Shown: in pieces, positions 16,491 to 42,448 of the stretch | How positions within the stretch are numbered: position 1 is the first letter of the stretch | How the letters are laid out: each line of letters begins with the position of its first letter | Origin: Symbiodinium sp. CCMP2592 | Lineage: Eukaryota; Sar; Dinophyceae; Suessiales; Symbiodiniaceae | DNA length: 64,000 nt | Assembly (NCBI GenBank): GCA_905221615.1 | Contig: CAJNDT010003212.1 | Location: 167,001 to 231,000, forward strand | Reading direction: 5' to 3' | The notes under the pieces: model-generated | What the model saw: the letters and a program-made list of their open reading frames with translations, nothing else | Database searches by the model: none | What the model was told of the DNA's origin: nothing | Made by a program: the position numbers and the translations under genes

Positions 16491-17923
16491 AGGTCTTGAC
16501 TGCCAACACCAATCGTACCGGCACTGCGAAGACGCCTTTGCTCGTGAGTTTCATAAAACAGGAGTCCGTGCAATTAGCATCTTTGCAAGAAGTGGATGTC
16601 AACGTTGAGTCTGCAGTGGGTTTTTGCAAACACTGGAAGACTCAGGGATTCAATGCAGTGCTGGCGCCTTTAGACGCCGAAAGACGCCAACACAGAGTTG
16701 CTCTGATCTCTTCGCTGCCTATCAAGCCTATTGCATTAGGGGGGGTTTTTGACAGCTCCAGGGTCGCTGCAGGTTTGATTGAGCTACAACGTCAAGGGAA
16801 CAAAATGTCAATTTTAGTCCTTGCCGTTTATGGTTACCCTGGGAATCTCCCGAAAACTTCCCTACTTGTAGAAAGTCTCTTTGAAAAAGCAGCCACCTTC
16901 GGAGGCCCTGTGCTGGCCGTAGGTGACTGGAATGCCGTAGAGGAGGAGGGGGTCCTCGCTCGCCTCGTGACCTCAGGACACCTGATCCCGCTTGACGATG
17001 GTGATCGCAGCGACCTTCAGAACACCAATCCCGCCCGCACCAGAAGAATCGATTATGGAGTGAGCACCGCGCACATTCGTGCCGACGCCGTGCTACACTA
17101 CGATCGAGCTGACATCTCGGACCATCTGTGCGTCGCTTATAGTTTGGACCTGGAGACCTGGCAACAGTGTGCCGGTATCCCTAGATTTCAGCCAGTGGAA
17201 CAAACGGACCCACAAATCATCATGAACCGGTTTCGTGAAGCCTGGGAACCAGAGGTTTTTGAATCCTGTTTGGAAGCTGCTGATGTTGACCAAGCCCTTG
17301 TGCACCTTTATAGAGTGGCCGAAACTTGCTTGCATTCCGGTGATTCGAGCTGTGCCGAGGCCGTCAGCCGGGCGATGCTCTGGGACCCTGTGCGCAACGT
17401 ATGCCGCCCACACCACACCACAACAGAAGGTCATGCCTCCTTGACGTTGCACACCCTGCGCAAATTGGACAGTCAACTACGACAGCTGCGTTGCCAGCCT
17501 TTCGACCAAAATCTAAGGACTGCGGTACGGAAAAAATGCGGGGACCTGCGTCGCCGACTCCCTGAATGCCCTTTCTTCGACCTTAACGACCTTGATAGCA
17601 CCCTCACTAAAGTCGAAGCTTTGCGGTCTGACCTGACGGCCCAGGAAAAGCAGATCCGCATCGCCAGGTGGAGGACTGAAACAAACAATGTCACTGCTGC
17701 CACTGCCTGGGTCAAGCGTTGGGCTGCGCGCCGTGTCGAGCTCGACACCCCGCCCTGCGAGTTGGCCAAAGCTCCCGCTGACATCCACCCCACTTCTGTC
17801 GTCAGTACTCAGAGCAGGGTGTGGATGAATAAGTGGTCTTGCGATTCCGAGCCCATAAACCAGGCCGACCTGGCCGAAATCTTGAGTGCCCTCCCCAGGC
17901 CGACTCAGGCTTCAGTGGACTTA
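16433..17923 (+). pseudogene. LINE copy A ORF2, APE-type endonuclease part (truncated by insertion)
   Basis: An apurinic-endonuclease-like (EEP) domain that nicks the target for reverse transcription. Motifs: LTANTNRTG, SLQEVDV (metal-binding Glu), VYGYPGN, AVGDWNAVEEEG (Asp-x-Asn), RRIDYGVST and a terminal SDHLCVAY (Ser-Asp-His). The frame lies -1 relative to ORF1 and overlaps its end by about 55 nt, with no ATG before the first strand of the domain. The stop at 17,924-17,926 is created by the first bases of the 22-kb insertion, so the original ORF continued into the RT now found at 39,971. Confidence 0.8.
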
Positions 17924-17951
17924 TAGTAGTTCACAAATCGTTGGCATACGG
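17924..17951 (+). repeat. Left terminal inverted repeat
   Basis: It begins TAGTAGTTCACAA and continues with ATCGTTGGCATACGG. Against the reverse complement of the right end, the first 13 bases are identical and the rest match apart from two substitutions and a 2-nt gap. The inner part, CACAAAT-NNN-TGGCA, is the motif repeated throughout the element. Confidence 0.92.
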
Positions 17952-18004
17952 AAATCGACTTCAATGTGCCATTCACTCCGTTTTTTGGTAAAACCTGGCT
18001 CTTA

Positions 18005-18430
18005 GAACAAATCCCTGGCATATCTGACGAAAACTTGGGCTCAGAAGAGGGGGCTTGGGGAGTAGACACAAATGCCTGGCACATTTGATTGCAATTCTCG
18101 ATTGGCTTAAAAAACCCTAATGGCCCTAATGCCTCAATGCCCGAATACCCAAATCTCCTTAAAATCCAAACATCTTGGTGCCACAATATTTTGGGAGTGT
18201 GGCTTGAAACAGTGATTCAGTTTTTCGATGGCTCACAAGAGGGGGCTTGGGGAGTGGACACAAATGCCTGGCACATCTGATTGCAATTCTCGATTGGCTT
18301 AAAAAAACCCTAATGGGCTTGGGGAGTAGACACAAATGCCTGGCACATCTGATTGCAATTCTCGATTGGCTTAAAAAAAAACCCTAATGGCCCTAATGCC
18401 CTAATGCCTCAATGCCCGAATACCCTACCC
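18005..18430 (+). repeat. Left subterminal repeats with forward motif copies
   Basis: The forward motif (ACAAAT-NNN-TGGCA) recurs at ~18,006, ~18,066, ~18,259 and ~18,331. The last three lie in a longer repeat, GGGGCTTGGGGAGT-G/A-GACACAAATGCC, followed by a shared TTGCAATTCTCGATTGGC and CCCTAATGCC words. Such subterminal clusters are typical transposase-binding regions; binding here is inferred. Confidence 0.7.
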
Positions 18431-18520
18431 CCGGAACTTTTTTCCCTAAAGCCCTTTCGGATCGCAGCGGGGCGGGGCTGGGCCGGGACCTCAGAGTTTG
18501 TTGTCGTAGGAGGGTCTTCA

Positions 18521-19034
18521 CTAGGAGTGCAGGTAGTGCAGGCTTCGGGGGTTTTTCGGGGTTTCTTCGAAGGTGGTTTGGGGCTCTGAGGCTGCAAGGT
18601 AGTGTCCGTGCGCACTCCCTTCCCTTCCCCCGCCTCCTTCCTCCCCCCACCCTTCCCTCGCCCAGGTCCGACCTCGTTGACGATGCTGGCTGGTCCCTCT
18701 GAGGTTTCAGGGTTAGGGTTTTTTTTTCGGAAGGCTGGTTGGGGCTCCGAGGCAGCGAGGCAGTGGTCCGTGCGCGCCTAGGAGTGCAGGTAGTGCAGGC
18801 TCGGGGGTTTTTCGGGGTTTCTTGGAAGGTGGTTTGGGGCTCTGAGGCTGCAAGGTAGTGTCCGTGCGCACTCCCTTCCCTTCCCCCGCCTCCTTCCTCC
18901 CCCCACCCTCCCCTCGCCCAGGTCCGACCTCGTTGACGATGCTGGCTGGTCCCTCTGAGGTTTCAGGGTTAGGTTTTTTTTTTCGGAAGGCTGGTTGGGG
19001 CTCCGAGGCAGCGAGGCAGTGGTCCGTGCGCGCC
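18521..19034 (+). repeat. 257-bp tandem duplication
   Basis: 18,521-18,777 and 18,778-19,034 are nearly identical, each starting CTAGGAGTGCAGGTAGTGCA and ending GTGCGCGCC, with only small differences such as the length of a T-run. No coding potential is convincing. Confidence 0.85.
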
Positions 19035-19905
19035 AGGTTCAAGGTCATTTCTAAGGTTGGAAGGCGGGGGGTTTTCGTAGGCCGCGAGGTTTAGAGTGCA
19101 GGTGCACAGGGTTCTCTGCTATGGTTGGGGGGTTTTCGGGGTTTGTAGGTCCCTAAACCTCTCGGGGTACCCTAGGCCGCCTTGCATCCGGGATCCCCGG
19201 CCCCCCGCCTCTCTGCCCAGGTGCTTCCAGCTGGGGCGGCGCCGTCGTCGCCAGCTGCGGGGAAAAAGGGGGTTTGAGGCGGGCCAGGGGGGATAGCCGG
19301 AAGCATGCCTCACATGTGCCATCAATTTGTGTGCCTTCCTGGCGTGCCCTTGGGCAATCACACACATGCTGCCCGGTGTTCGCGATGTGAGGCGATGGGG
19401 TCTCCGTTGCATTCCACGAAGGATGATCTCCACGAAGAGGTGCGGCCGCTGCTTCAGATTGAGCTTAACTGCCTTTGTGCATTTTGCCGTGCTGCTGCTG
19501 CGAGGTGGATTGGGGTTTCGGTTTCGGGTTTTGGTGGTTGGGGTCTTGCCCGTCCCTCTCCTCTCGACAGCTTTCGGGCTTTGGTGGTGGTTTGGGGTCC
19601 ACGTGTGCCGCTCACATGTGCCATCCATTTGTGTTGGTGGCTTGCCCGTAGTGCTGTGCAGGATCAGTTGCTGTCAGTTGCTCAGAGTTTTTTTTCGCCG
19701 TATGTGACACATGTGGACCAAAAAAGGGAAAGCTTGCTTGATTTTGGTCACTCCTTTAAGGTTTAATGTTCAATGCCAAACCAATGCATGACAACATGAC
19801 CTATCGATCCTTTAGGTCCTAGCCTTTCGCCTCGCCGCTTCGCCATAGCTGCGCTCTGTGAAAACTACTCCAATTCCCTCTCGAGTTTGATCGTCAAGGT
19901 CATTC
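19035..19905 (+). other. Non-coding stretch with two motif copies
   Basis: I see no supported gene. Reverse-orientation copies of the element motif occur at ~19,315 and ~19,616, the latter in CACATGTGCCATCCATTTG. Pyrimidine-rich runs around the motifs suggest intronic or untranslated sequence. Confidence 0.35.
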
Positions 19906-19914
19906 GTGCCGGTG

Positions 19915-20403
19915 ATGGCAGATCGCGATGTGCCCGACTGGGTGCTGCCCTGCTTCAGGGGCTTCAGTGTCGTGCATGGTGGTGCAGTTGATACAGTCGA
20001 AGTGTGCCAGATAGAGGGCAAGAAGGCTGTCATGTATGAAGGGGTTGAGACAAGCGCAACGGTGGAGGAGATGTTGACTCGTCTGACTGATCCTGGCTGC
20101 TCTTCTGACCTTTACGAAGCAGTGGGCATAGCTGTGGTGGTTAAAAGGAAGAGACAGGACAACAGCGATGACAAGAAGCAGGACGATGACCAGGGCAACA
20201 ACGATGACAAGAAGCAGGACGATGACCAGGGAAGCAGCGATGACAAGAAGCAGGACGATGACCAGGAAAACAACGATGACAAGAAGCGGGACGATGACCA
20301 GGGAAGCAGCGATGACAAGAAGCAGGACGACGACAAGAAGAAGGACAGCGATGATTCGGGCTTCGCAGCTACCGTGGCAAAGAGGCTGCGTGCTGGACAG
20401 TGA
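19915..20403 (+). CDS. Acidic/Lys repeat protein of unknown function
   Basis: ATG 19,915 opens an ORF of ~160 residues. The first ~85 residues form a compact, non-repetitive domain (DVPDWVLPCFRGFSVVHGG, then a segment resembling VEEMLTRLTD). After a basic KRKRQ patch come about five copies of a 12-residue DDKKQDDDQGxx unit encoded by a 36-nt DNA repeat (about 20,165-20,340), and the protein ends AKRLRAGQ. The repeats are highly charged and probably disordered. I do not recognise a family. It is the first coding-looking ORF from the left end of the transposon; whether it is a complete gene or one exon is unclear. Confidence 0.45.
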   Translation: MADRDVPDWVLPCFRGFSVVHGGAVDTVEVCQIEGKKAVMYEGVETSATVEEMLTRLTDPGCSSDLYEAVGIAVVVKRKRQDNSDDKKQDDDQGNNDDKKQDDDQGSSDDKKQDDDQENNDDKKRDDDQGSSDDKKQDDDKKKDSDDSGFAATVAKRLRAGQ

Positions 20404-21309
20404 GCGGCTTTCACTAGAGTCACTAGAGCAAAACACAGCACAACACAGCACACAACAGCCACACACACACACAGCAGCAACGACACAGCAGCAGCAGCAA
20501 CACAGCAGCACACACCACAGCAGCACGACAACACGAGGGGTGAGGTCTCTCGAGGGTGTGCTCCGGGGTTGGTGGGTTGTACATTGCACATCCTAGGCAT
20601 AGGCCGGGTATAGCATGGTGGGGTACTTGAGCACACCCTCGTTCGTACAGGCTTTCGCGGCGACAAAGGAGTGGGGTTTGGGGCGCTGGGTGATAGGTGC
20701 TCGAAGTTCAGGAAGTCCAGGGCACCCGAACCCATTTGGCCCCGTGGTAGGCGTGCCTTCGTCTTTGTCCTCCTCGACTTCTCGCCGCGCGTGATGCCCA
20801 GCTGCCCATTTTGAAGCTTTTGGGTTTCGGGCTGCGGGTTCTTGCTGCTCTGGTTGCTTGGTTACCGGCTTTACGACCTCAGGCCTTTATCTTCCTGCGC
20901 TGCTTTCGATTGATTTGCCATCACAAAAGACACATGTGCCAGGAATTTGTGTGCGTCCCCACAGGTCCCCTCCTTTTGCCCTCCGAGAGTGTTGCCCAGG
21001 TCCAGATCTTCGTCATCCAGTGCTGGCGCCTCTGAGGGTTTGTTTTGGGGTCGCGGTTTGGTTGTGTCGACTGTGTGCGGATGAGCGAGTGTGTACCTTG
21101 TCCTCCCCGTCGGCCCCGCATAGGAGCGATTTCACGAAGCGACTAAGTTGTCTTTTCCTGAGTGCCGTCGCAGCCACTGAGCCGCGTATATAAAAATAAA
21201 GAAAAGAAAATATCTCTGGAAAACGTGCCATGCATTGCACTGTGGGACAGTAAGTTTTCCATTGTCTAGAAGCACTCTTCGTTCGGGACTGGCTTCTTTT
21301 TCCTGTGGC
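20404..21309 (+). other. Non-coding stretch with AC/CAG-rich microsatellite
   Basis: Bases 20,430-20,535 are rich in ACACAC and CAGCAGCAGC runs. A motif copy lies at ~20,936 (CACATGTGCCAGGAATTTG). No gene is supported. Confidence 0.35.
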
Positions 21310-21738
21310 ATGTCGGTGCCGAACACCTTGTCTGATGACGAGGGGCACTGGGCTGTGCTGCAGCCGCCCGCTTATGCCTCGCAGATGCTTCGCTACCTGG
21401 AGAGTCAGCCCGTAGGGCTCAGGGATGAGGCGCTGGCCGATGCCTGTCGCCGGGGTATTGCTCGAGAAGCCCATGCTTCTGACAACGAGGCGTTTGAGTC
21501 GCCTGGAAGGGCATCTGCCGGCTCAGATGTGCTCCCCTCGACGACGGATAGGCTGGACTATCTTGAGGAGCAGATGAGGGACCTTCACGAGCAGAGTCGC
21601 TTGCAGCGCGAGCAAATTCAGACGGCCATCCGCCTAATCCACGAGGTGAAGAACCAAGTGGCTCCTCTGCTAGGGGCTTTCCAAGCTGATGCGGCAGGTC
21701 AGCGGCCTCGATCCAGAAGCCCAAGTCGGCGCACGTGA
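21310..21738 (+). CDS. Coiled-coil protein or exon with RS-rich tail, unknown function
   Basis: From ATG 21,310 (MSVPNTLSDDEGHW) the frame codes for ~142 residues. A helical N-terminal part (YASQMLRYLESQPVGLRDEA) is followed by a predicted coiled coil with heptad-like spacing (DRLDYLEEQMRDLHEQSRLQ) and by HEVKNQVAPLLGAF. The tail is basic and Ser/Arg-rich (RPRSRSPSRR). It may be a DNA- or RNA-associated accessory protein, or one exon of a larger gene. No family is recognised. Confidence 0.4.
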   Translation: MSVPNTLSDDEGHWAVLQPPAYASQMLRYLESQPVGLRDEALADACRRGIAREAHASDNEAFESPGRASAGSDVLPSTTDRLDYLEEQMRDLHEQSRLQREQIQTAIRLIHEVKNQVAPLLGAFQADAAGQRPRSRSPSRRT

Positions 21739-22656
21739 GGAAAGGCGTCTGCAGCCATCATTTGTGGTCAGGTAGCTTCGTCTTACAGTTTTGAGTTCCC
21801 CACAGGCTTCCTGGAAGGTGCGTGTGGTGGCTGGACCTCTCTTCGGCGTCCCAGGTCATAAACAGAGCGAGGATTGTTGGCTTGCTGGCTTGGTTTATGA
21901 TGCAGTTCTCAGATGTGCCAACCTTTGGTGCAGGGTTTAGCCTAGGTCGGTTGAGTGGTCCATCGGTCTTCAAGGCTTGCCTTGCTTTGCCCAGGTCCTG
22001 ATCTGGGTGTTGGCTCCATCATCGACGTCGTTGCGCCGGGTGCCTGGAAGGTGAGTTTCTAATAAACTGTTGAGTGTTAGGAACGACTGTTGTGGCATGA
22101 ATTGGTGTTGATCCCCCTCCTATCCGCATCGCTAGGTCTGTCCATGTCTCTCTCGTTCTCGCTCTTTCTCTCTGTGTCTCTCTCTGTCTCTCTCTGTCTC
22201 TCTCTGTCTCTCTCTGTGTCTCGAGACGGCCCCGCCCAGGCAACTCGCGCATCCTCTCGCTGCTGGGTCAGCCGATAGGACCCTGGTGTGCCATCCATTT
22301 GCGTGATTAGATCGGCTGTCACGGGGATTCACAAGCATGCTCACGCTCATGTCCATAGCCAGTAGTGACATGAGTGCCGACGGGAACCTGATGTGCCATC
22401 CATTTGTGGGATTTAGACCGGCTGTCACGGGCTTTCACAAGCATGCGCGTGCTCGAGTCCATCAGCCAGTGGTGTGGCATGAACGCAGACATGGGGGCAT
22501 TCTGCGTTGGAGGCATAGGGTTTAGAGTTTATGACTTGAGGGTACTAGGGTTCAGTGTTTGAGGGTTCTCGGGGTTTTGGGATCAAGCGCTTTAGGGCCT
22601 GAGGGTTATTTTTAGATGCCTCCCTACCGCAGATTGCTAGAAGTATATATGGATGC
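21739..22656 (+). other. Non-coding stretch with CT/GT microsatellite and motif copies
   Basis: The motif occurs at ~21,914, ~22,288 and ~22,392, the last two within a ~100-bp duplicated block (CGGCTGTCACGGG then TTCACAAGCATGC). A TCTCTCTGTC microsatellite lies at about 22,140-22,222, and ~22,600-22,710 repeats AGATGCCTCCCTACCGCAGA. No gene is supported. Confidence 0.4.
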
Positions 22657-22918
22657 TTGACACAAGATTCACAAGATGCCTCCCTACCGCAGATTGCTAG
22701 AAGTATATGGATGCTTGACACAAGAGAGGGCGAGTGGCAAGCTGAGTGCGTAGGCACTTTCCTGGCTGCAATGGATTCCACCCATCCCTTGGCCGTGGCG
22801 GGGGCACGCTGCATGAAAACAATTGCTGAACGAGCAGTTGCAGCGGCGGCTCAGGTGTGGGCTGTGCGAGATTTGTACCATTGTAAATCGACTTCCGCTG
22901 TCCATGCGACAGGTTGAT

Positions 22919-24732
22919 GGACACCCTCTCTTGTTGTACCGGCGGGAGCTCACGCTCTCAACCCGTTTTTCGGGCATGGGAGGTGGCGAGCAGGCTGCGC
23001 TGATGGTGCAGAACGCTACGGGGATTCACTTTGCACTCACCAATCAGTGTGATCATGCTCGAGAGGCCTTTTCGGTGCCTTGGCTGGTACGCATTTTGAG
23101 ACAAAGATGCTCCAACCGCGCGGGCTGCGTGTGCTGTTAGTCGGTCGTGCCCTGCGAGGCCCTACAGTTGAGCCCGCTCTTCTCTTCTGCTGTGTGTCAG
23201 TTCTCTGACATCAGCAGCTTGCTTCAGCCCTGGTTATGGGGTGACCTTGGCTACGATGAACAGCTTAAAGCTTCCAGGGGCGCGAAGCTACAACCACGAG
23301 TAAAGTGCCTTCACCATGGTACCTCGCCTTCCATAGACTACACCCAAACATCAGTCCATGCTATAAGTGCACATGTGCCATCCTTTTGTTGAGCGAACAC
23401 AGGCCAGAATTGCCGGCCTGCCGCCGCGGATCTGGACATATCCGGTCCACACTGCACGGACCACAGCAAACTAGGAAGAAAGGCTGGCAAAGACGGTCCG
23501 ACAGCACGCTTCTTCCTGTCTTACATGCAAGAACTGCGGGAGCGACGCACAAAATTGGCCGTGATTGAAAACGTCTCCAGCGGCGACTTTGCCGACATGC
23601 TGTCGCTGGGATGTAGATATACGCATGTACAGCTTACTTACACACGTCTTAATGCGCGTGTACGCATGCAGTGTCGTCCTTTGATTTTTGCCGAACGTTT
23701 TGGCCCTATAGAGTTGTGTCGCAGTCTAGGACGGGCAACCTCCGGGATATTTACTACATCGAAGAGATTCGCGCAGATCCTCGGGACGTCGGATATTTTG
23801 CTGTAAGCAGGCCTCGCAGCTATTTCGTATTGGTTCATCGTGAACAAGGGCGTTTCTTGCGGAGCCCGCGCAACGTCTACTCGGAGATCTGCTCAACATT
23901 GCAGCAGCAGAAGGACTTGCGCATCCCACATCTCTTCTGGGAACGTGACGAAATGGAATTGAGGCGTGAACGATTTGCAAGCATACCTCAATCTCGGTCA
24001 GATGATGCGTCGGGGTCAGCTTTCAGCGATCAGCTGCCCCCCTTCGAATGCAAACAGCTAGAAGGGTACAAGCGCATGTGGAAGGAACACTGTTCCGACA
24101 AGCCGGCAGATGAGGCACTCTTTGTCCTCAACCAGGACTGTCAAAAATACACCAAATGGACGTTGTACGGCACGGACAAGGAAGCGGGGCGGTGCCCCAC
24201 GCTGGTGAAGGGATGTGGCACGACGCGCTTGTGGCACATGCAGTCAGAGAGATGGGCAACTGCTCGGGAGAAGCTCCGAACCCGCATTGATGCAGCATGC
24301 AAGGCAAACAAATAGATGGCACATGTGGGCCACTGACTCGGCGTGTATGCACTCAGGTTGTCCTGGCACGGCTGGCCTACGCACCCCGAGCTGGCAAAGG
24401 CCGAGCCTCATGGTGGTTGTGGTGATGGTGTGTGTGTGTGTGTGTGTGTGTTGTCCAATCGCTTGTGCTTATGCTTTTTGCCCTTTATACATTCCCAATT
24501 TCGGAGAATGTATATATTTGCTGAGGCGATGAACCTTCCTCTTCTTGACACCGCCCGGCTATCCAAACCCCACGAGCTCGCCGGCTCGGGGTTTATGGTG
24601 CCTTGCTGCGCCGCCGCCTTGCTTTCTGCTTTGGCGTCGATTCAACTCCACGAGGATGTGACGGCCTGGCAGATTCCTCGGCCGATGGCGCCAATGGATT
24701 TTGAGGCAAGGGACTTGCTTCTGTTTCAACAG
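22919..24732 (+). CDS. C5 cytosine DNA methyltransferase with introns (transposon cargo)
   Basis: The methyltransferase motifs occur in order over several exons. Motif I: TRFSGMGGGEQAAL (~22,962-23,005). An acidic/Cys NQCDHARE follows. Motif III-like: FSDISSLLQPW, ending KCLHHG at 23,318. After an intron comes DLDISGPHCTDHSKLG (~23,435), with the catalytic Cys of motif IV in a PHC rather than PPC context. Motif VI: AVIENVSSG (~23,560). Then DPRDVGYFAVSRPRSYFVLV (~23,782), CGTTRLWHMQSERW (~24,220), and a motif X-like SGFMVPCCAAALLSAL at 24,588-24,640. Intron 23,319-23,402 (GT-AG, 84 nt) keeps the frame exactly. Intron 24,304-24,525 (GC-AG) is also in phase. Another intron near 23,600-23,690 is needed but its ends are unresolved. 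It should transfer methyl groups to cytosine in DNA. N-terminal exons may lie at 22,657-22,850. Confidence 0.72.
23319..23402 (+). other. 84-nt intron containing the transposon motif
   Basis: Donor CACCATG|GTACCT, acceptor GAACACAG|GCCAG. Removing it joins KCLHHG to QNCRPAAADLDISG in phase 1. The motif ACATGTGCCATCC-TTTTG lies inside it, ending about 11 nt before the acceptor. Confidence 0.75.
24304..24525 (+). other. GC-AG intron starting with the forward motif
   Basis: Donor TGCAAG|GCAAAC, immediately followed by AAATAGATGGCACATGTG, the forward form of the motif. The acceptor is TTGCTGAG|GCGATG. Splicing joins RIDAACK to AMNLPLLDTARL in phase 0. A GT microsatellite lies inside. Confidence 0.65.
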
Positions 24733-24770
24733 GTTCTGACATGTGCCGTCCACTTGTTTCCATGCCTCAG

Positions 24771-25380
24771 GTCATCCGTGTGCCACAAAACGGGAGGTGC
24801 TTTCTCTCATGCGTGTGGCTTCACACAGTGGCGACGCGAGAGGAACTGAGGGAGTGGTCTCTTCTACCCCGGTCGGCCACCGGAATGCCTATGGCGTATG
24901 GGGAAACAGATCACGGGCGCCTCAAATGGGAGGAGTCACGTGACTTGCCTGTGCAGGTCTGTCCATCTCTATCTCTATCTCTCTCTCTCTCTGTGCCTGT
25001 GAGTTTCCGGGTATATATTTCCCATGAGGTCAGATTGCAACAGCAAGCTCCGTGGAACAGCTGTTGAACGACACCGGGAAGGCAACCAAGGAGCTTTTAG
25101 ATAGGCTCCAGCGCGGGTACCAGACCGATGGTGATGACCATCAAATTCTGTGCCAGACCTTGAAACTGCGCATGACTGCCCACCACTGCAGCAACAGCCA
25201 TGTGACGACAGAGGAGCTTGGCTGCTTGCAGGAAGAGGCAGAAGGCCACATCCATGTTCGATTTGCCCAAGCATGTGACGGTGCTGGTGTTGGCCAAGGA
25301 CACTTCGATTACCTTTATCCCAGGAGCCATGAACCCCAGGCAACCGGCGGGGTCCCTCTGCCCAAGACAGTTCAACACGG
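24771..25380 (+). CDS. OTU-like cysteine protease domain (probably fused to the methyltransferase)
   Basis: The exon starts after acceptor CCATGCCTCAG|GTC (24,770), preceded by a short intron whose 3' half is the motif (ACATGTGCCGTCCACTTG). Joining it to the methyltransferase exon keeps the frame with either likely donor (24,732, or the GC donor near 24,705). The domain opens VIRVPQNGRCFLSCVWL, in the position of the OTU Asp-Gly-x-Cys box, with Asn for Asp and the nucleophile Cys kept. Intron 24,940-25,043 (GT-AG, phase 1) joins LKWEES to SSVEQLLND. The domain closes with GQGHFDYLYPRSH, matching the GHFD catalytic-His end of OTU proteases. OTU proteins usually cleave ubiquitin chains; the substrate here is unknown. 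Confidence 0.6.
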
Positions 25381-29102: not shown

Positions 29103-29105
<3 letters not shown>

Positions 29106-30461: not shown

Positions 30462-31500
<1,039 letters not shown>

Positions 31501-31639: not shown

Positions 31640-33600
31640 GCAGGTTGACTGGAGGGAGACAGCAGGGGTCATGGCCTCTGAGGGCATCGAAGGCCAAACT
31701 AAGGCCGCACATGTGCCTGCCATTTGTGCGACTGTGGTCGATGTCCCACTGCGTGCTGGCCAGGCAGTGCAGTCGGAGCAGGCAGCCTTTGACGAGGCCA
31801 AGAAGATAGGACTTCGCTTCGACCGACGTCGCAAGCATTTTCAGATGAGCCACGGCGGCTATTCGAGAACATTTCCTTGGGGCAAAAATGGCATGGATGT
31901 AGCAGCCGCATTTGAGATGGGCCGGGCATCTGTGAAACTGTTGGAAGAAAGCCAGTGCGAAACGTCTGGCTGGTCAGGCAAGAGGTGCGCAGACTACATG
32001 CGGGAACATGATCTGCCTGGCAAACGATCCAAGGTTTCTGAGCGACAAGACACGTGCGCGGGGTTCATGTGGAGTCTGACTTTTCCTGCCACGAAGCAGC
32101 CTGCACTTCCTGCTTCAGAGCCTGCGCAAGCTGCGGGCAGGCTTGACTCCACATGCAAGTCAGAAGTGGCCAAAGCAGGCCTTCCGGCTGCATTCAAGCT
32201 CCCCGACTCAACTCCATCAACATCGACATCCAAGAAGACGAAGACCCGTACCGAAGACGTTACAGCCACTCTGTTCCAATCCCAACAACCCAAGGAGGCT
32301 GTGTCTGGCAAAAGCGTGACGCAGTTGCACGATGCGGAAAGCATCAACCAGGCCACCAAGATCATCCTACCAAGAATTGCCCTGGTGAAGTATGCTGAAG
32401 CTGACCAGACACTGCGAGCTGCAGGTGGCGCTGCGCCGCCGGGTGTCGTTGCAGCCGTCCCCTTGGATAAAGGGCGACACAAAGGATTGCTCATGGCTCG
32501 CGGACTGTTCGTTGGTGCGGGAGAAGCAGCGGGCAACAAAGACGATGAGGAGTATGAAGCTTTCCGCAACATGCATGGGCTGTCTGTCCCGATTGGCAGG
32601 CGGGGGGGGGGGGCAGCGACACAAATGGTTGGCACATTTGGATCCCAGAAGGTGTTCGTAGGTTATACATATACAGTAATTATATGCATGCACACGCGCA
32701 CATACATACACACACATAGACGCACACGCAGTGTGTGCCTCTGTGGAAGGATCATCAGTGGAAGGGAGTTGTGCTCCGAAGATCTCGAGTGGGTGGTGAG
32801 TTCTGGACAGGAGCATGCGTTTGTGGCTGTTCTAGGGGCCACAGTCTCTGACCTGAAGATTTACGGGCTCTCCCAGCAGAAGTCGGAACTTGTTCCGCAA
32901 GGGCACGTCAGTGTCCAGGCGAAGGGCAAATTCTCCGCGCTACTTGACGGGTTTTGGTTTGTGCTTGACCGTGTCCGGCAATGCAACTTGGAGAAAGGGG
33001 TCGTGGACGCCTTCGACAAGGAGCTGGAAAGGCTTCGCGCTAGCAGCTCCCACTCCAAGGCCCCAGCAGAGCTGTCAACGGAAAGCCACGAGAAGCTCAT
33101 GGAGGCCGGGGCAAGCACCTCCATATCTGCCGTCATCGAGCTGTTGGACCAGCACGTTGACCGCCTGAAAACGGATGCTGCAGCAACTCTTGCCCAGTCA
33201 GGATACGGCGTGCTTCGCGCGGCGGCAAGTTGTGAGCCAGTTGTGAAAGAAGCCCTTCGAGCAGTGCCGGCGTGGATGCATAACGAGCCGGGCATTCTGG
33301 CCGGTGTCTGGTCTCGATGCGCTCAGCGCCTTCGCAGCTACCGCTCGCTTAGGATGTTCAGTCGCCTGAAGCTTGCCCTGGAAGAGCGGCTGGCGTTCCT
33401 GATGTCCCCAACGCACTCCAAAGAATGGCTAAACTCGTTGGCATCACAGGCAGAAGAGTGCGCTGACCTCAACGCACTGTTGGAAAGCCTACCTCACTTC
33501 GATGATCACGCGTGGTCACAGATCCAGCCAGACGACGTGGTCCGGCTGATGAAATTTTCTGCACAGCTACTGTCTCGCCTCGCTGAAGTCTCTTGGCTGG
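31640..33600 (+). CDS. AP2-like DNA-binding domain protein (transposon cargo)
   Basis: A long open frame, probably with at least two introns. The stretch near 31,706-31,768 carries the motif (CACATGTGCCTGCCATTTG) and ends with an AG acceptor before SEQAAFDEAKKIGLRFD. The interval ~32,600-32,745 has a G-run, a forward motif and CA-rich sequence that stays open by chance. IGLRFDRRRKHFQMSH and FPWGKNGMDVAAAFEMGRAS (~31,805-31,930) resemble one AP2/integrase-type DNA-binding unit (beta strands, then an amphipathic helix). The rest is helical, for example ISAVIELLDQHVDRLKTDAA and RLRSYRSLRMFSRLKLALEE. It may regulate or help transposition; both are inferences. The ORF end (~33,618) runs into a forward motif copy, so the true 3' end is uncertain. 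Confidence 0.45.
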
Positions 33601-33850
33601 TGTCGGTCCGTGTAACAGACACAAGTCTTTGGCACATCTGCGCACGAAAAGTTTAGAACGCTTGTAGTATGGGTTGAACTGGGCTGCAACAGCGACAGGG
33701 GCACCCCCGTAGCAGGCACAAGTCTTTGGCACATCTGTGCACGAAAAGGTCAGAAGGCTTGTTGTTCTGCATTTACCCCAAACCTAGCACCCCCTCTCCC
33801 CACTCTCCCCCTCTTCCACTCCCCATTTTTTTTGTCCCCGCCCAGGCAGT
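33601..33850 (+). repeat. Duplicated forward motif block
   Basis: ACACAAGTCTTTGGCACATC near 33,618 and its near copy near 33,716 are each followed by TG and GCACGAAAAG. They match the inner right TIR (CACAAGTCTTTGGCATAT read inward) better than most other motif copies do. Confidence 0.75.
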
Positions 33851-34165
33851 CTCAGCAGGAGCTCATCTCAACTCGATTTCCTCAAGCACTCCCAGGCGTC
33901 CTGCTGCTTGTGGACGTCACAACCCGGAGAGGTCGTACAGGATGATGCGCTCGCAGATTTCCAAGTGTGCTTTGGTGGCCGGGGCAAACGATGTGGATGA
34001 GGTTCTAGCGTTGATCCCTGAGAAGCGCAAGCGCAATTCGTCGGTGCCTTCAGCGCCGGTGCCCGCTCTGCAAGATGCTGACGGCAGGCAGAAGGCTGGT
34101 GTTCTTATGGATGGCTTCGCAGAGGATGCGGGAGACGCGGCAAACATAGTATACCAGCAGACATG
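33850..34165 (+). CDS. Short exon upstream of the transposase, unknown function
   Basis: After a pyrimidine-rich tract ending CCCGCCCAG (33,845), an open frame codes for RMMRSQISKCALVAGANDVD, EVLALIPEKRKRNSS and LMDGFAEDAGDAANIVYQQ. It could be the N-terminal exon of the transposase or a separate small gene. No family is recognised. Confidence 0.3.
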
Positions 34166-36250
34166 CCGCCCAAGCCCAAGCAGCACTATCGCAGGAAGCC
34201 TGGGGACTTGCCCACCATTGACGAGGTGTGCCAAGTGTGCCGGCGAGCGTTAGCTCTTCCGGCGGGAAGTGCAAGACAGAAGATTGTCCGTAGCGAATAT
34301 CCGCACATCATCCGAAGCAATGTGCTATCGAAGTGGCTGTCCCGTTACTTTCGGGAAAAGCTGTGGAAAGTGCCGCCAGAACTGGCAAAGAAATGGAAGA
34401 CCGTACCAGAGTACTGGGGCAAAGAATTCGGGCTATGCGTCTCGTCCAAAGGTCCTGCTACAATCGCTGGCATCCCGAAGGAGGTCATGCTGTTATGAAA
34501 CTGTCATGTGCCATGTGCCCGTGTTTATTCGGAGTGTAATGTATATATATATATGCACTGATACAGGTTTCTCCTGCTTATGCATCAACGTGCTTCCTTT
34601 CGTGTGTCCGACTCGGGATTCGCTTGCAGGTGGCGAGGCTGGTGGATCATGCGCAGTCGGAGTCTGTCATGGGACTCACAGACGCTACAAAGCGTGCGGA
34701 CGCTGCTCAGTCATCCCGGCATCTCAAGAGATCGATCGTTGCTGCGATGAGTCAGTACAGCAATCGGGTCGAGCAGCAGACACTCAGTATCCAAGGCGCA
34801 AATCAGCAGGCGTGGGCAGAATTCAAAGAAGAAGTAAAGAAAAATGGCAGCGGTGACAAAACTTTGGCAAAGGCAGTGAAAACTTTGCGCAGGAAAGTCC
34901 AGCCATTGGCACGGTCATTCAGATCGTGGAAGCCAAATGCGATGACAACTGCCAGGTTCAACAGGTTCTTCAAGAACATCACACAAAAATGCAACACATC
35001 CGGAAATTACTTGACTTTCGATGACCCGCGAATGGTGGCCTCGCGCCATCATCACAGGGAAACCGTGCGAGAACATAACATCAAGCAGCAGTTGATTTTG
35101 TGCCTCGACTTCATATGTGTATATGTATATACATATACCAGACGTCTTAGAGTCTTAGACATAGAGATGTGCCATCCATTTGTTGATCAAATACACATAT
35201 GCGTGTGTGTGTGTGTGTGAATATACACACACAAGTGGTTGTGTGGCTCAGGAATTTTGATCAAAGCTGGCGCTCTTTGTATCATGTGGGCAAGAAGGCA
35301 GTCCGGAAGAGGTGCGGCCGCAGCGAGATTGCGTCCGGGAAGCAGAGCCAACGAGCTGGGAGAGGCAAAGGCCATCACAGCAAGCGCAAGAAGGGCCAGG
35401 GCAAACAAAAGTTACGATCGTCGGGCACCCCGAAGGAGGACTTTCGCTTCGACCCCATAGGCAATGTGCTTAGGCTGCACCATCGTATTGCTTGCCTGCC
35501 CGAATCATGTTACGTTCTTCGGGATATGCCACCCTTTGGTGCGCCGAGGCAAGACGCTGTTTCAGCGTGTGCGCATCCACCTGGGCCAATGGCAGCCCGG
35601 GACCGGTCGCCATAAGCATACCGGCCGGGACTGTCAGCGGCAAGCTGATAGCGCAGTGGAATCGCCAATTCGTCGGTCGCGCTCGGTGGATAGTTTCCAC
35701 CACGGAGTCCCACATGTTTAACGCGGAAGCCATACTCGAACTTTTCGAAGAGCTCTACACGCCGGCCTTCAAGTTGCAAAGGAGCTGCTGCGGCCTTTCC
35801 TTACAAGATAAGGGCCTCTTGTTATGCGACGCCTTTACGGGCGTTCATGCCGCCACATTCGGTCTCGTGGAGAGACGACAGAGATGGGGGGATCAGAACA
35901 ATGTGGAGATGCCGCACTTGCAACCGGGTGGATGGAGTGCGAAAGGCCAACCGGCCGATAGGCTGTTTGGGCTATATAAACAAAGAGTGAAACTACTGAT
36001 GGATCGCAGCTTGGGCTTCAATGAAGACTATTTCAGCCGGAGCAGATTTCATACCCTTCCACTGTCTTGTTTGGGGGCCCCCAAGAGATCCGTGAACTTT
36101 GAAGAGGCGCATTTGATTTCCGTACAGTGTTGGTGGGAACTCCCGCTGAAGCTGTTTCGCATGGCCTGGCTGCAGACGGGGTACGTTTCGCCGGATGAAA
36201 TGGCCTCCATGACTGGAGAGGATGCTTCATCTTTTGAGAAGGCCGGCTGA
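34163..36250 (+). CDS. Pogo/Tc1-like DDE transposase with introns
   Basis: The first exon from ATG 34,163 encodes a basic, helical start (MPPKPKQHYRRKPGDLPTID, then LSKWLSRYFREKLWKVPPEL), likely the DNA-binding part. A second exon (~34,628-35,090) is helical and Lys-rich. The catalytic part follows: first Asp in WLRNFDQSWRSLYHVGKKAV (codon 35,259); then HMFNAEAILELFEELYTPAF; second Asp in KGLLLCDAFTGVHA (codon 35,828); third acidic residue in GQPADRLFGLYKQRVK (codon 35,957), 43 residues later. The QPxD...FK pattern and a C-terminal CWWELPLKLFRMAWLQTGYV are typical of pogo/DDE_1 transposases. Introns lie at about 34,500-34,625, 35,090-35,240 and 35,450-35,580; motif copies lie at ~35,168 and ~35,525. 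It would cut at the terminal repeats and insert at TA. Confidence 0.72.
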
Positions 36251-36361
36251 GATATGCCTTCCTTTTGTGTAGGACTTTTGGGTCCAGCTGTTGCTCTGGT
36301 TCCTTCGACACACATCTAAAATAAGAGATATATATATATATATATATTGTAGAATCGAATC

Positions 36362-37230
36362 TCTTCCAGGTCACAGGGACAGCTCCCGCAGAAATCGACG
36401 TCGTGGATGCTAACCCACTCTTGCGCATGAATCCGCCTTCTTGCTCAGAGGTGCTGGGCGCCGCGGCACCCGGAGAAGTGGTGTATATGTGGCAATATGA
36501 GGATCGATCGGCCCTGGCTGATGCCTCCTCCGGCAGCTCGGCAGTTCCAGCCGAATCTTGCGAATGGCGGCCTTTGCCTAAACTGCTGTACAGACTCCTG
36601 GACCGTGAATACGGTCGGTATTTGCATCCCGACGAAAGTCGTGCTCCTCCGCACCCGATCAGCAGCTTCGTGGTACATTGCAGTTTCGGCTACGAAATGC
36701 AGCGATCTTGGGTGTTCAGCAATTCGTCAGCACTCCCAGCTGGCGGGCGCAAGCTTCACACCACGAAGACTGGCAAGGAACGTGGCCAGTACATGATGGT
36801 GAACTTCGACAGGTCTTCGCTGAAGGTTCAGTTCAACGGACAGCCTCAGTGCAGGGTGCGCTGCTGCAAGGTGACGCATGAAGCGGGGGAAATTCTGACC
36901 GAGGGGGATATGACTACTTTGCGCGATCGACTGAGATGCTACTTGGACGACGGTGATGAGGATCATCATACATCCGACGGAGTGCAAGAAGCTGCCCAGA
37001 GCGTGGAGGAGGTGTTTGTGTGTCATTTTGCAAAGAGTCTGTGTGCGGTGTAACCTGATGTGCCAGCGACTTGTGCAGGCAGAAGATGCTGGCCATCCAG
37101 ATGCCAATGCTATGCTGGCGATCCCCGAAATGTTGCCGAATTCTGAGGAGGAGATGTGTTTGCTGGTTCATTCCATGCATGAATGCGCAAAGGAAGGTTG
37201 TGCAGAAATACCTGACGTATCACGTGTAAG
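36362..37230 (+). CDS. Possible WWE-like domain protein, two exons
   Basis: After acceptor CTCTTCCAG|GTCAC (~36,370) an open frame codes for VDANPLLRMNPPSCSEVLG, VVYMWQYEDRS, EWRPLPKLLYRLLDREYGRY and then GQYMMVNFDRSSLKVQFNGQ, PQCRVRCCK. The last part resembles the second half of a WWE domain (Tyr-x-x-Asn/Asp-Phe ... Gln-x-Asn ... Arg-x-Arg), which in relatives binds ADP-ribose. Intron 37,012-37,078 (GT-AG, 67 nt) joins AQSVEE to AEDAGHPDANAML in phase 0, and its last bases are the motif (TGTGCCAGCGACTTGTGCAG). The second exon continues to about 37,226. It could instead be a C-terminal extension of the transposase. Assignment is tentative. Confidence 0.4.
37012..37078 (+). other. 67-nt intron ending in the transposon motif
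   Basis: GTGTTTGTG at the donor, and TGTGCCAGCGACTTGTGCAG right at the acceptor. Splicing keeps phase 0 and skips an in-frame stop (37,051), which supports it being real. Confidence 0.65.
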
Positions 37231-37539
37231 TGTGTGTGTGTATATATATAAATAACTCATTCGAAGGCAGAGGAAGCGGGCGATGCTGACGCCAATCTGC
37301 GGTGTGCTGCGACGTCACACATCCGTGTGACCACGGAGGAAGAGGCCATGGAGTCGTTTGTTGTTGTGAGATGACAGATGCCAAGTGCTGCGCATGAAGG
37401 CAGCTCCGTCTTCCGATCTCGGCGCTGGCCGAGAACCCATGGATGCGCTGGCAGCAAGCTATGTCACATGGCTGTTTGTGATTTTCGACCCGCACGTGTG
37501 CCATCCTTTTGTGCAGCAACCGTATAGAAGTTGTGCGCT

Positions 37540-37830
37540 CAGGCTTCTGAGGAGGAAGGCAGCGAGGAATTTCCGCCGTTGGGCCCGGAATGGACTGTGC
37601 TGATGCAGCGAACGAGCTCTGGCTCTACACAGGTCCGCATCCCGCAGGAGCCAGGAGCGTTCTCTACACCAGCGAGCGACAAAATGGACCTGGCCCCAGG
37701 GAGCCGCATTCAGCGGCGAGGGCCGGACCACTGCTTCCAGGTGCACTACAAGGTTTCAGGATCACCTGCGTATTCCAAGAACTTTTCTTGGAACATCCAG
37801 CCCAACGCCGAGCCCTCTCAGGACGTTCGT
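37540..37830 (+). CDS. Coding fragment of unknown function
   Basis: Downstream of a motif copy (~37,497) and acceptor TATAGAAG, an open frame reads SEEFPPLGPEWTVLMQRTSS, then SRIQRRGPDHCFQVHYKVSG, SPAYSKNFSWNIQPNAE. It looks like one exon, perhaps of the preceding gene. No family is recognised. Confidence 0.3.
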
Positions 37831-38467
37831 AGCATCATGACAGTGTGTGTATTTTCTGTCCAGATAATCGGACTCGTGACAGGAGTCCGCTCTGCAACAA
37901 GCCATTGCGTGGACGTGGCAACAGTATGACCTCCATGGTCCCAGTGCATGAACCGAGTAGATGCATGGCGAGTCTCACGTGCTTTGGCGGAGCCTTCAGG
38001 TGGGACACGTAAACAGGCAACATATGGGCTATACTGATGGACACACGCTGGGGAATCCTTTCGAAATTCAGATTCCAACCCAAAGGCTCCCGAATGAATG
38101 TGAGTGCAAGCGAGGGTGGTGCACCGCCGTTATCAGTTTCGTTGATGCCCCTTTGTACACAGATGCCTTGGGCTACGTTACACTGATTTTACAAGCTTGC
38201 CTAAATTTGACGGTGGTAATTCCTCTGGTGTGCCAGAAATCTGTGGGAAGGAGATAAAATCCGACGAGTTTTGCAATGCCGTGCATTGGTGACAGTATTC
38301 TTTGCAGTACAAGCTTCTTTTTTTGCAAGTTGTGCCGCCAGGACCTACGGCGTGGTCATGAAGGTCGTCATGTGCCAGCCACTTGTGGGTTTAAGACTTC
38401 TGCTCGTACTTCGGTGCGTTTTCTTGCCCGTCTGAGTTCTTACACAGGTCCGAGAGCTTTTAGGATG

Positions 38468-38507
<40 letters not shown>

Positions 38508-38800
38508 TTTTTGGCTACTAGAAGTGGTGATGAAGATGATGATGACCATTGTGGTCGCCACGCACCAGTTCACAACAGCTCCTATCATCACGATGTGTCA
38601 TATGGCCGCCGTGAATTTCGACCCTCGCGTGTGCCAGTGTAGCAGCCGTATTTCGTTAGGCAGTTTTCTTTCGGAGCACGTTTCTCCTTTGCTCCCACTT
38701 TTGAATCTCGCTGCCGCGCATGCTCCGGTTCGAGTTTCGTGTTGCCTGCGCTCAGGCTTCTGGCGAGGAAGACGACGGGGACTTTCTTGTCCTTGCAAGT
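37831..38800 (+). other. Non-coding interval with TA microsatellite
   Basis: Motif copies occur at ~38,370 and ~38,630 and a (TA)n run at about 38,468-38,504. GCGCTCAGGCTTCTG-GAGGAAG at ~38,748 echoes ~37,537, suggesting a decayed duplication. No gene is supported. Confidence 0.35.
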
Positions 38801-38814
38801 TGCTGCGCGTCCCT

Positions 38815-39545
38815 GCGTGTGGATGCTGGTGTGCCAGCCATTTGTGCAGAGTAACATAGCTGCAAGAGGTCCCGGTCTAGCATCTCTCATTCCGGGCCTT
38901 TTATTGTTCACTATGCCAGAACCCGAAACTGTGAGCCACAACTAGATGATCCTTTACCCAAAGCCCAAAGCCCCATTGAAGTTTGGAGCCGGGCGTCCAC
39001 ACGAATGGCATTGTGATGGGGTGTTGCAGCACGGCACGGGCCTGTTTGCGGGTGCTGATGTGCCAGCCATTTGTGTAGAGTCTACAAGGCAAGAGGTCCC
39101 GGTCTAGCATCTGAATCTCTCATTCCGGGTCTTATTGTACTCACGGTGAGCCATAGTTAATCCTCTACCCAAAGCCCAAAGCCCCATTAGAAGTTTGGGG
39201 CCGGGCGTCCAAACAAATGGCACTGTGATTGGGTGTTGCTTCACGTGCCCGTGTGGGTGCTGGTGTGCCAGCCATTTGTGTAGAGTAACACAGCTGCAAA
39301 AGGTCCCGGTCTGGCGTCTCTCCTTCCGGGCCTCTTATTATACTCACAATGACAAATCCCGAAACTGTGAGCCACAATTAGATAATCCTCTACCCAAAGC
39401 CCAAAGCCCCATTGAAGTTTGGAGCCGGGCGTCCACACGAATGGCATTGTGATTGGGTGTTGCATGTGCCTGTGTGCGGGTGCTGATGTGCCAGCCATTT
39501 GTGTAGAGTAACATTGCCGAATAAAACATAGCTGCAAGAGGTCTA
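38815..39545 (+). repeat. Right subterminal tandem repeat with reverse motif copies
   Basis: Four units with a period of ~204-229 bp. Each contains GTGCCAGCCATTTGTG (at ~38,831, ~39,060, ~39,264, ~39,489), CAAGAGGTCCCGGTCT or a variant, and CCAAAGCCCCATT followed by GGGCGTCCA. With the right TIR they give five reverse-oriented motif copies, mirroring the forward copies at the left end. Confidence 0.85.
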
Positions 39546-39599
39546 GCAGCCTGGCAGGCAATATTCACGGCGTGGCGCATGCTTTTTGTATAGGTTATG

Positions 39600-39760
39600 T
39601 ATATAGGCGTTGTTTCTGGCTCATCCGCACAAGGCCACCAGGCAACCCTGCTTGGAAAACTTGCGAAGGCTTTGCGAAGCTCGGTTTAAGGTAAGGCGTG
39701 TTTCTGACACATCCCTGCAAAGCCACCTTTGTTCGAAGGCTCTGGATTTGCAAAAGCCCG
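39600..39760 (+). repeat. Two diverged direct repeats near the right end
   Basis: GGCGTTGTTTCTGGCTCATC (~39,607) and GGCGTGTTTCTGACACATCC (~39,697) start two ~90-bp related blocks, each continuing with GCAAAGCCACC- or CAAGGCCACC-type sequence and CGAAGGCT. Confidence 0.6.
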
Positions 39761-39938
39761 AGAAGAGATCGGACTAGGAACCTGTCGGCGCATCTTGACG
39801 GAAAAAGAAAGACCCTCCGCGCACAAATAGATGGCACGCGATCCGCAAATAGGCGTTTTTTTATCGACTGGGTGCATGTCATCTTGGCCCCCATGTCCAT
39901 CCCCCCGGGGGGGGGCGTATGCCGTCCACTCGGTCGAG

Positions 39939-39968
39939 CCGTATATGCCAAAGACTTGTGAACTACTA
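39939..39968 (-). repeat. Right terminal inverted repeat
   Basis: It reads CCGTATATGCCAAAGAC and then TTGTGAACTACTA on the + strand, the inverse of the left end. It is followed by the TA target duplication and then directly by LINE ORF2 sequence (TCAATCAAAGG). Confidence 0.92.
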
Positions 39969-42448
39969 TATCAATCAAAGGGCAGGAACTTTTTGATGCG
40001 GTCAAAAGAATGTCCCACAAGGCCGTCGGCCCCGACCAATGGGGTGCCGAGACCCTGCACCTGCCATCTGAGTGGTGGGAAGCCTTGGGACGACTCTGGA
40101 CATTTGTGCTCTCCAGTGGGCAAGTCCCACTGCTGTGGAGACGTGCGTTGGTAATACTTGTCCCTAAAGCACATACTGAGTACCGCCCCATAGCGCTGAC
40201 ATCCTTCTTTTGGCGCGCGGGTGCCCGCATCCTGTGCAGGCGTATGCAAGCGTGGATTGCATCGTGGTGCTCGCCCCAGGCTGCTGGAGGAGCCCCAGGC
40301 AAAGGCACCACTGACGCTCATGGCGTCATCTTGCAGAGCTGGCACCAGGGTGCCAAAGCCTACATTCAACAAGACTTATCCGCGTATTTTGACAGCATCA
40401 GGCTCCCACAGCTGCTCACCATCCTTGACCACATGCGGGCCCCGCCGTGCCTGGGCAGGCTGCTGGCATCGTTCTACAGCAATGCTCAAAGATTGTTCAA
40501 GGTCTCCAAAGTCACCAATGGAAGGTGGAGGACGCCTTCTAAAGGTCTTCTGCAGGGGTGTCCCCTGTCTCCCCTGTGCGCCCTTTTGATCGGCAATGTG
40601 TGGCATGCTTACGTCACCCGGGGCGGTCCCACCAAGGCGCTTATCTTCGTGGACGATAGGCTCTTATGGGCGCCGCCAGGGGCCAGGGACGTGGAGGCGG
40701 CTCTCGTGGATGGGGTGACGCGAAGTAATTTCTTTGATAAGGTCATGAATTTTACCTGCCGTCCCTCGAAGTGCGCGATTGTCGAGCCTAAGGCCCGCCC
40801 CAAGCTGAGTACACTAGCGGCACAGTTGGGATATCCGACCCGTCACCGTTTGGAAATCTTGGGCCTCACTGTTGAGCTTGACAGTGGAAAAACAGGCTTA
40901 CTTAAGATGAGTGTTGACACCCTCCAGGCTCGCCTTCGCGCCCTAAACATCCTGAACCCCTCTTTCGGTGTGGCAAGGGTCGTGTGTTCCAGTTTGGTTT
41001 TCGCTGCTCTGGCTTGGGCTGCAGGCATCGCAGCCCCGGAAGCGAAGGATCTCACCGCCATCCGGAAGTCGGTCCACCGAGCCCTCAAACCTCAGATCAC
41101 AGGCGAAACTCCGTGGGTCCTTCTAGCCGAAGTCCACGGATGGCAGTGGGACCCCAAATGGCTTTTGCAATGGAGGGCCTTATGTGCAGTCGGGAGACAT
41201 GTGACAAGGGGTGCAGCTCAAAGTGACAACCCGGTGCAGGCTGTCCTCCCCCATGCCGTCAGCACCGCCACCGACTTGGGCTGGACACTTGAACTCAATG
41301 GCGCCGCCATCTCTCGAGTCGACGATGCCGGGCAGACGACGTTTTTGGTTCGGGTGGCAGAACATCCAAGTTTTGCGCGACTGGCTCACCGAAGAGCACC
41401 GCAAGCGAGGCATCGCAAGCTGTGGACGTGTCAAGACCTCTTACCACCGTGCAGAGGTAGGCCTTGCTATGGGCCTAAATCTTGATGCACCGTGCCCGAG
41501 CATCCGCTTCGCCCTGGCTGGCCACAGACTTCTCGGACAGAGTCAGACACTTGATGTTCGCCGAGCCTCTCTGGCCACAGGCGGTTCGGCCTGGTACCAC
41601 CGTCAGCGCCTCCCTTCTATGCGTGATTCTGAGGTCAAATGCCTGTGCAATCTCTCCCCTCGCGAGCCCACGTTACGTGGGTATGCCCAAAGACAGTTGT
41701 GCACAGGCAGGGTCTCCGGACCCCCACGAACAGAGTAGAAGAAAGGCTGTTTGGAGCCCCCCTGCCGGAATACCCAGCTGCCCCTGATGGCAACCAGGTC
41801 CCAGCCATGATTCAGGCTTTACGAGACCACTTCTGTCAGCTCCTGACACATGATGCCGGCAACATTCTTGTTGCCAGTGATGGGAGCCATCATCTTGGGG
41901 TAGGTGCTTGTGCAGTGGTGACGGAGAGTTCCGAAGACACCTTCTCCGCAGGAGATGATGCCGAAGACCAATCTCCCTTTCGGTACGAGATGGTCGGTTT
42001 GAATGCCCTCCTGCAGGCTCTCCCGAGGGGGCCGCGGTACAACAACTCCACCGTAACCGTCTTGGTCGATTGCCAAAGTGCTTTGGATTCTGTTCAGCGT
42101 CCCGACACTAGCAAGCTCAGATCCCTGGCTGAGGAGTCGGCTGCGTTGTTGCAAGCACTCCGTCGGGACTATAAAGCTGTTCACCTGGTGTGGGTCCCCT
42201 CGCACAACAAACGACTTGATTGGCAACCGCCTTTAGGGTTGGATGATCGCCGATGTCGTGACCTGAATGACAAGGCCGACCGGGCAGCCAACCAAAGACG
42301 TGACTCAAGGGCCCAAGGCTCCTCTCGAGTGGCGTGGCATCGCCGCTTTGAGGAAGCTGAGCGATGGGAAGTTGCTGCAATCTCTGCGGCAGCCGCATCA
42401 TCTGCCCTTCTGTACGATCATCTCAAGCCTTTGGACTCCCCTCCCTAG
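39969..42448 (+). pseudogene. LINE copy A ORF2, RT and RNase H part
   Basis: ORF2 resumes directly after the TA duplication. The RT frame runs to 41,485: AYIQQDLSAYFDSIR (motif A, ~40,362), GLLQGCPLSPLCALL (motif B, ~40,547) and ALIFVDDRLLW (motif C, ~40,643). RNase H is in other frames: one shift near 41,335 (also present in copy B) and a second at 41,657, where 4 bases present in copy B are missing. RNase H residues are SDGSHHLGVGA (~41,877), EMVGLNALL, VDCQSALDSV (~42,064) and DKADRAAN (~42,270). Intact, it would reverse-transcribe element RNA at the nicked target. Confidence 0.8.

Follow-up and report, generated by a model that had tools for sequence, protein, structure and literature searches.

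A probable 22-kb cut-and-paste transposon of likely Tc1/mariner affinity, tiled with its predicted binding motif, in a Symbiodinium-like dinoflagellate

We analysed a 64,000-nucleotide stretch of contig CAJNDT010003212.1 (positions 167,001 to 231,000 of the forward strand, assembly GCA_905221615.1) from Symbiodinium sp. CCMP2592, called the window here. Positions 17924-39968 of the window are the precise insertion of a recently active cut-and-paste element. Very probably this is a giant 22-kb transposon of a Symbiodinium-like dinoflagellate, most likely of the Tc1/mariner type, which inserts at TA and is tiled with its own predicted binding motif. A giant TA-duplicating cut-and-paste transposon had been proposed at this site in the original prediction. 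That proposal is now backed by another full-length copy, by five short copies sharing its ends, by TA at all 14 paired junctions and by the RNase H-type predicted fold of a homolog of its transposase. The dispersed end motif, a methyltransferase-like gene and the short partner copies were not part of that prediction. The element and its boundaries are as follows.

17924..39968, + strand: the entire giant transposon, 22,045 bp (second copy on contig C5172, 22,431 bp, 26 substitutions)
17922..17923, no strand: TA target duplication, left copy (from the window sequence and comparison with sister copies)
17924..17951, + strand: left terminal inverted repeat, beginning with TAGTAGTTCACAA and containing the motif copy at 17932-17948
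39939..39968, − strand: right terminal inverted repeat, containing the motif copy at 39944-39960
39969..39970, no strand: TA target duplication, right copy (from the window sequence)

With a slash marking the element boundary, the left junction (17922/17924) reads GTGGACT-TA/TAGTAGTTCACAAATCGTTGGCATACGG and the right junction (39968/39970) reads CTACTA/TA-TCAATC, whose reverse complement is TAGTAGTTCACAAGTCTTTGGCATATACGG. The inverted ends match perfectly over 13 bp, with TAGTAGTTCACAA common to both, and imperfectly over about 28-30 bp. The insertion target is an approximately 11.8-kb long interspersed nuclear element (LINE) in a tandem array, whose frames carry RVT_1 and Exo_endo_phos in a Pfam scan. 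At the corresponding point the two sister LINE copies have GGACTTATCCATC and GGACTTGTCAATC; both sites are thus empty, with one substitution each; in the second of them the substitution falls in the TA itself. The junctions, the inverted repeat, the TA duplication and both empty sites are thus as originally described. The LINE occupies 10.4-64 kb of the window as three tandem copies, the last truncated by the window end, with endonuclease and reverse transcriptase domains. An OTU-like protease region and repeated Cys-rich segments were also seen in it by eye.

The left 301 and right 301 bases of the element were used to search the 1,098,105,373-base assembly, in which the window lies on contig C3212. 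The left end gave at least 8 full-length matches (40 of 125 candidates scored) and the right end gave 7 (7 of 7 candidates scored). All seven right ends lie opposite a properly oriented left end. Two pairs are giant, with the ends 22.0 kb apart on C3212 and 22.4 kb apart on C5172, and five are short, with the ends 2.35-2.38 kb apart (C1001, C236, C111, C5006 and C835). TA stands directly outside 14 of the 14 paired ends. With TA accounting for 3.4-6.3% of the dinucleotides in each of four fetched regions, 14 out of 14 would arise by chance with a probability of about 2.5e-19. For the eighth left end, on C1546, the right end was not found in the 35 kb beyond it.

Relative to the window copy, the one on C5172 has the 26 substitutions and 12 indels, the largest of which is a 412-bp unit of an internal array, and its left terminal repeat has 1 mismatch. 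When this copy was excised in silico leaving one TA, an unbroken CCCTAAACCCTAAACC, a telomere-like repeat, was restored. The five short copies of about 2.36 kb are 99.45-99.75% identical to each other. Comparison of three of them with the giant showed that the left 307 and right 734 bases are kept, while the middle is similar only in patches. The paired ends, the near-identical copies and the TA junctions elsewhere indicate that the two ends travel together and did so recently, and that the element is not an assembly error.

Two further observations concern the ends and the target. About 30 contigs, including C3951, C3526 and C1922, hold a 92-93% copy of left-end bases 117-301, and C1922 holds two such copies about 32 kb apart; possible sources are a tandem unit and a different high-copy element that uses this subterminal repeat. 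At the insertion at C5006:214601, a single case, the TA target resembles an inverted repeat, TTGATTCAAG TA ATGAATCAAG.

The core of both ends is a 17-bp motif, which is repeated inside the element:

17932..39960, 10 on + and 31 on −: 41 copies of CACAARNNNNTGGCAYA with at most 1 mismatch, 25 of them exact, throughout the element
18006..18347, + strand: left subterminal cluster of 4 motif copies, oriented as the left end
38830..39503, − strand: right subterminal cluster of 4 motif copies, oriented as the right end

No exact copy was found in the rest of the window. When up to 2 mismatches were allowed, the element held 48 copies versus 4 in the rest of the window, and the shuffled element gave a mean of 1.85 and a maximum of 4. 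With at most 1 mismatch, each giant holds 41 copies and each of the five short copies holds 10. At the same threshold, the sequence flanking the C5172, C1001, C236 and C111 copies (120,495 bp) contains none, where 224 would be expected at element density, and that around C5006 and C835 (6,008 bp) contains none either. The C1546 element has 5 copies, all within 1.5 kb of the left end. Conservation around the motif falls beyond about 21 bases. Nine of the 41 copies precede nine copies of one internal repeat and are therefore not independent. The copy closest to the right end outside the terminal inverted repeat (39822-39838) points the opposite way to that end. Four copies lie inside the long frames 29576-30643 and 31497-33656.

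Related transposase families, named here by their percent likeness, were inspected for the same motif. The 57% relatives carry 2-4 copies of the same motif per locus; this family has four copies (C288, C3546, C5129 and C4918), 99-99.9% alike over the compared stretch. The 54% and 47% relatives carry motif variants that keep the GGCAYA half and have a different left half; 3.7 kb holds 6 copies at the former and 3 at the latter, against a maximum of 1 in shuffles. Because each variant was picked from the very locus where its copies were then counted, the counts are suggestive and not proof. For the variant of the 54% relative, 3 further copies were counted in the giant and 3 in 120 kb of host DNA. 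The half GGCAYAYGTG has 18 copies in the giant, between 1 and 3 at each of four loci of relatives and none at the locus of the 52% relative; the remainder of the window has one, and 120 kb of host DNA has two. The presence of the motif or a diverged variant at three of four related families suggested that it is probably a transposase-binding site. We therefore read the motif, from its sequence distribution, as a predicted binding site that probably diverges along with the enzyme and is tiled over the element. Matches in viral contigs to the end (20 stretches) or to the motif (54 stretches) were single ones, and no locus in these 632,841 bases had two exact motif copies; they look like chance matches.

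Several findings, here and below, weigh against the reading of a self-tiled Tc1/mariner element. Neither the motif nor a variant of it was found at the 52% relative locus. The dispersed motif may instead be a splicing or introner signal, left when the element's genes were invaded by short intron-making elements that share its end core, with intron 3' ends of the form TGTGCCANNNNTTTGTG...AG. Three of the seven modelled introns hold one motif copy each, or five of nine when two putative introns are included, and some copies immediately precede the 3' splice site. No modelled exon of either spliced gene contains a complete copy, and a single copy overlaps a stop codon. Introners are also reported from dinoflagellates in the accessible text of PMC11453091 and PMC10666404. 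Nevertheless, the motif is frequent in the subterminal blocks and at both ends, including the ten copies of each short element, and it is absent from the 120 kb of host flanks, which counts in so far as these flanks include introns. By eye, no paired inverted copy was seen at the 5' end of these introns. On balance we regard the introner origin as unlikely. The idea that the motif is a general dinoflagellate intron signal was dropped, since the same host flanks argue against it.

The transposase is encoded near the right end:

34163..36247, + strand: transposase core of 568 amino acids with D267/D429/D472, exons 34163-34483, 34630-35099, 35252-35465 and 35549-36247 (from homolog comparison and the homolog's fold)
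31497..33656, + strand: frame for what is probably the N-terminal portion of the transposase (98 amino acids align with the start of homolog P0005, label symbB, at E 1e-11)

We take the label symbB to stand for Breviolum minutum; this homolog and the Symbiodinium sp. CCMP2592 protein described below point to a dinoflagellate host. The last, catalytic exon is identical in both giants (two genomic copies), and the other core exons differ by 2 substitutions. The second and third aspartates are 42 residues apart. A DDE protein near the right end had been predicted, and it is indeed present with a D/D/D triad; it proved to be multi-exon and without a Pfam transposase match among the window frames scanned. 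Searches of the PDB with the transposase returned only a nanobody by sequence (E 0.099) and one row by profile (E 1.3), and a fold predicted from a 3-sequence alignment was uninformative (predicted local distance difference test score 30). The predicted fold of a homolog is of the RNase H type, and Mos1 ranks first for it in both Foldseek and VIA-align, tied with Sleeping Beauty and retroviral integrases.

The TA duplication, inverted ends and aspartate motifs, together with the first rank of Mos1 (tied with integrases, see below), make membership of the Tc1/mariner superfamily likely. The narrower assignment to Tc1/mariner-pogo in the original prediction is likely right at the level of the superfamily and unsupported for pogo: among 32 homologs DDE_1 has weak hits in 2, at E 0.11 or worse, and no CENP-B-type helix-turn-helix was matched by Pfam in the N-terminal region. 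No pogo entry is among the fold-comparison matches listed, which carries no weight either way. The element is probably autonomous. Distant relatives of the transposase (23-24%) were also seen on C5042, C4223 and C31 as single open frames of 1910-2494 amino acids.

The enzyme could belong to another TA-duplicating DDE group, of PHIS/Harbinger type or of a TA-type EnSpm-related kind, rather than to Tc1/mariner. Fungal PHIS-type elements with TET/JBP genes also duplicate TA, as described in the accessible text of PMC12730594. No Pfam Tc1/mariner match rises above the cut-off, and in VIA-align integrase cores lie within 1 Z of Mos1, that is, they are tied with it and not merely near. These ties make a Tc1/mariner assignment slightly less probable and another DDE group slightly more so. 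On the other side, Mos1 comes first in both comparisons, Metnase and Sleeping Beauty are among the top seven of VIA-align, and DDE_1, weak as it is, is the sole transposase family listed for the homologs. Overall, an enzyme of another group seems quite improbable to us.

Two short elements of the same family might also have bracketed and moved ordinary host DNA, and the short copies (five) do outnumber the giants (two); however, the motif runs throughout the 22 kb and is absent from the tested host DNA, the interior includes a transposase gene whose D/D/D triad is backed by a homolog, and both giants are alike in content and ends, which leaves such a composite very improbable. An assembly artefact, for which only the hard-to-assemble tandem LINE array around the window copy speaks, is practically negligible given a second copy with the same ends on another contig and five short copies at other TA sites.

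Besides the transposase, the giant Tc1/mariner-like element carries the following features.

22771-22854, 22913-23074, 23159-23279, 23403-23612 and 23672-24315, + strand: cytosine-5 DNA methyltransferase-like gene of 5 exons (PF00145; one GC-AG intron)
29576..30643, + strand: frame with a 2-oxoglutarate-Fe(II) dioxygenase-like domain of the TET/JBP type (PF12851, E 4.7e-5, 23.1 bits, below the cut-off of 34.9)
25028..26347, + strand: open frame of 439 amino acids, no Pfam match
26402..31535, + strand: region with 9 diverged repeat copies, several spaced 326-391 bp, one motif directly before each; the copy number differs between the giants (the 412-bp indel)

The methyltransferase-like product matched PF00145 with E 0.0025 and 17.7 bits (range 17.7-19.5), below the cut-off of 22. 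The motifs FSGMGG, ENV and RCPT were spotted in it by eye, which we take to be methyltransferase motifs. A protein search over 7,739 candidates with word and length limits returned a single match, an unnamed protein of Symbiodinium sp. CCMP2592, in which 325 of 333 ungapped residues are identical. This protein agrees with two of our splice choices and differs at the last intron; a Pfam scan of it at 0.1 gave nothing. The dioxygenase-like domain has similar counterparts in frames 550-2022 (E 3e-9) and 6012-10022 (E 1e-9), which we took by eye for retroelement frames and which are without a Pfam match. The original claim that host-like genes had been gathered therefore stands for the one methyltransferase-like gene and is weakened for the dioxygenase-like domain, whose like is found in these two flanking mobile-DNA frames. 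Methyltransferase-like motifs were also seen by eye in the same two frames.

These features suggest how the element might work. The multi-exon transposase would cut at the TAGTAGTTCACAA ends and insert at TA. The same ends are observed, paired and with TA junctions, on the 2.36-kb short derivative, which this transposase presumably mobilises too. By binding the internal motif copies, the enzyme may coat or loop the long element, help the distant ends to meet (synapsis) and mark the element as self, while only the terminal copies adjoining TA/TAGTAGTT would be cut. The methyltransferase-like and TET/JBP-like proteins would probably tune the element's methylation. As a broader and tentative proposal, which we hold possible rather than probable, dinoflagellates may harbour a lineage of giant TA-inserting DNA transposons tiled lengthwise with the recognition motif of their own transposase, in family-specific diverged variants. 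Such a motif would label the element as self and enable an enzyme suited to small elements to deal with tens of kilobases; the methyltransferase-like and TET/JBP-like genes would write and erase the element's own DNA marks; and the lineage may be the long-sought transposase source for some introners.

The near-identical 22-kb pair and its five short partners suggest that Tc1/mariner-type ends can bear a multi-gene load at about ten times the usual length. From the tiled motif follows a direct, testable prediction of how ends so far apart come to meet. Its methyltransferase-like and dioxygenase-like genes link the element to the unusual way in which dinoflagellates methylate their DNA, and it is a candidate transposase donor for genomes that abound in introners and short elements.

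Tc1/mariner elements are usually 1-5 kb long. Like Mos1, Sleeping Beauty and pogo, the giant has a TA duplication, short inverted ends, a D/D/D core and short non-autonomous partners; unlike them, it is 22 kb long, has several intron-bearing genes, repeats its end-core motif through the interior and gives no Pfam match. The Tec and TBE elements of ciliates, which are alveolate relatives of Tc1/mariner, share the TA duplication and the extra genes, but they are smaller (4-5 kb) and are not known to have a tiled motif. En/Spm and Ac carry several transposase-bound motif copies within a few hundred bp of each end, whereas the motif of the giant spans all 22 kb. Polintons, KDZ and large En/Spm elements are similar in size and use a different enzyme. 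Starships and Teratorn are likewise giant with extra genes, also on different enzymes: Starships use a tyrosine recombinase captain (DUF3435), where the giant has a D/D/D transposase, and Teratorn is a piggyBac joined to a herpesvirus (accessible text of PMC6431247).

A 2019 review devoted to giant eukaryotic transposons mentions neither mariner nor Tc1 in its main text, and no giant Tc1/mariner-type element was found among the papers listed on giant transposons with mariner or on dinoflagellate mariner elements. The earlier remark that no such dinoflagellate element is known to have been described agrees with this. In Ectocarpus, as far as the available text goes, KDZ, EnSpm and Sola-1 elements are named giant and an autonomous Tc1/mariner is 4.4 kb. 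Dinoflagellate introners are short non-autonomous elements with inverted ends, and the motif of the giant likewise stands at some 3' intron ends. According to the accessible part of Gozashti 2022 (PMC9860276), end pairs were sought within 10 kb and among RepeatModeler repeats, and a 22-kb partner of introners could thus be missed.

KDZ and other fungal DNA transposons that carry TET/JBP share the dioxygenase-like cargo and belong to other transposase groups (PMC12730594, in whose main text, where accessible, the word mariner does not occur). For the other cargo gene, the available portions of PMC5890265 report intronless Symbiodinium retrotransposons that carry a DNA methyltransferase (DNMT) and cite DNMT-encoding DNA transposons in marine viruses, so that mobile elements bearing a methyltransferase already have precedents. 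Those retrotransposons share genus and DNMT cargo with the giant, whose methyltransferase-like gene instead has introns and rides on a DNA transposon.

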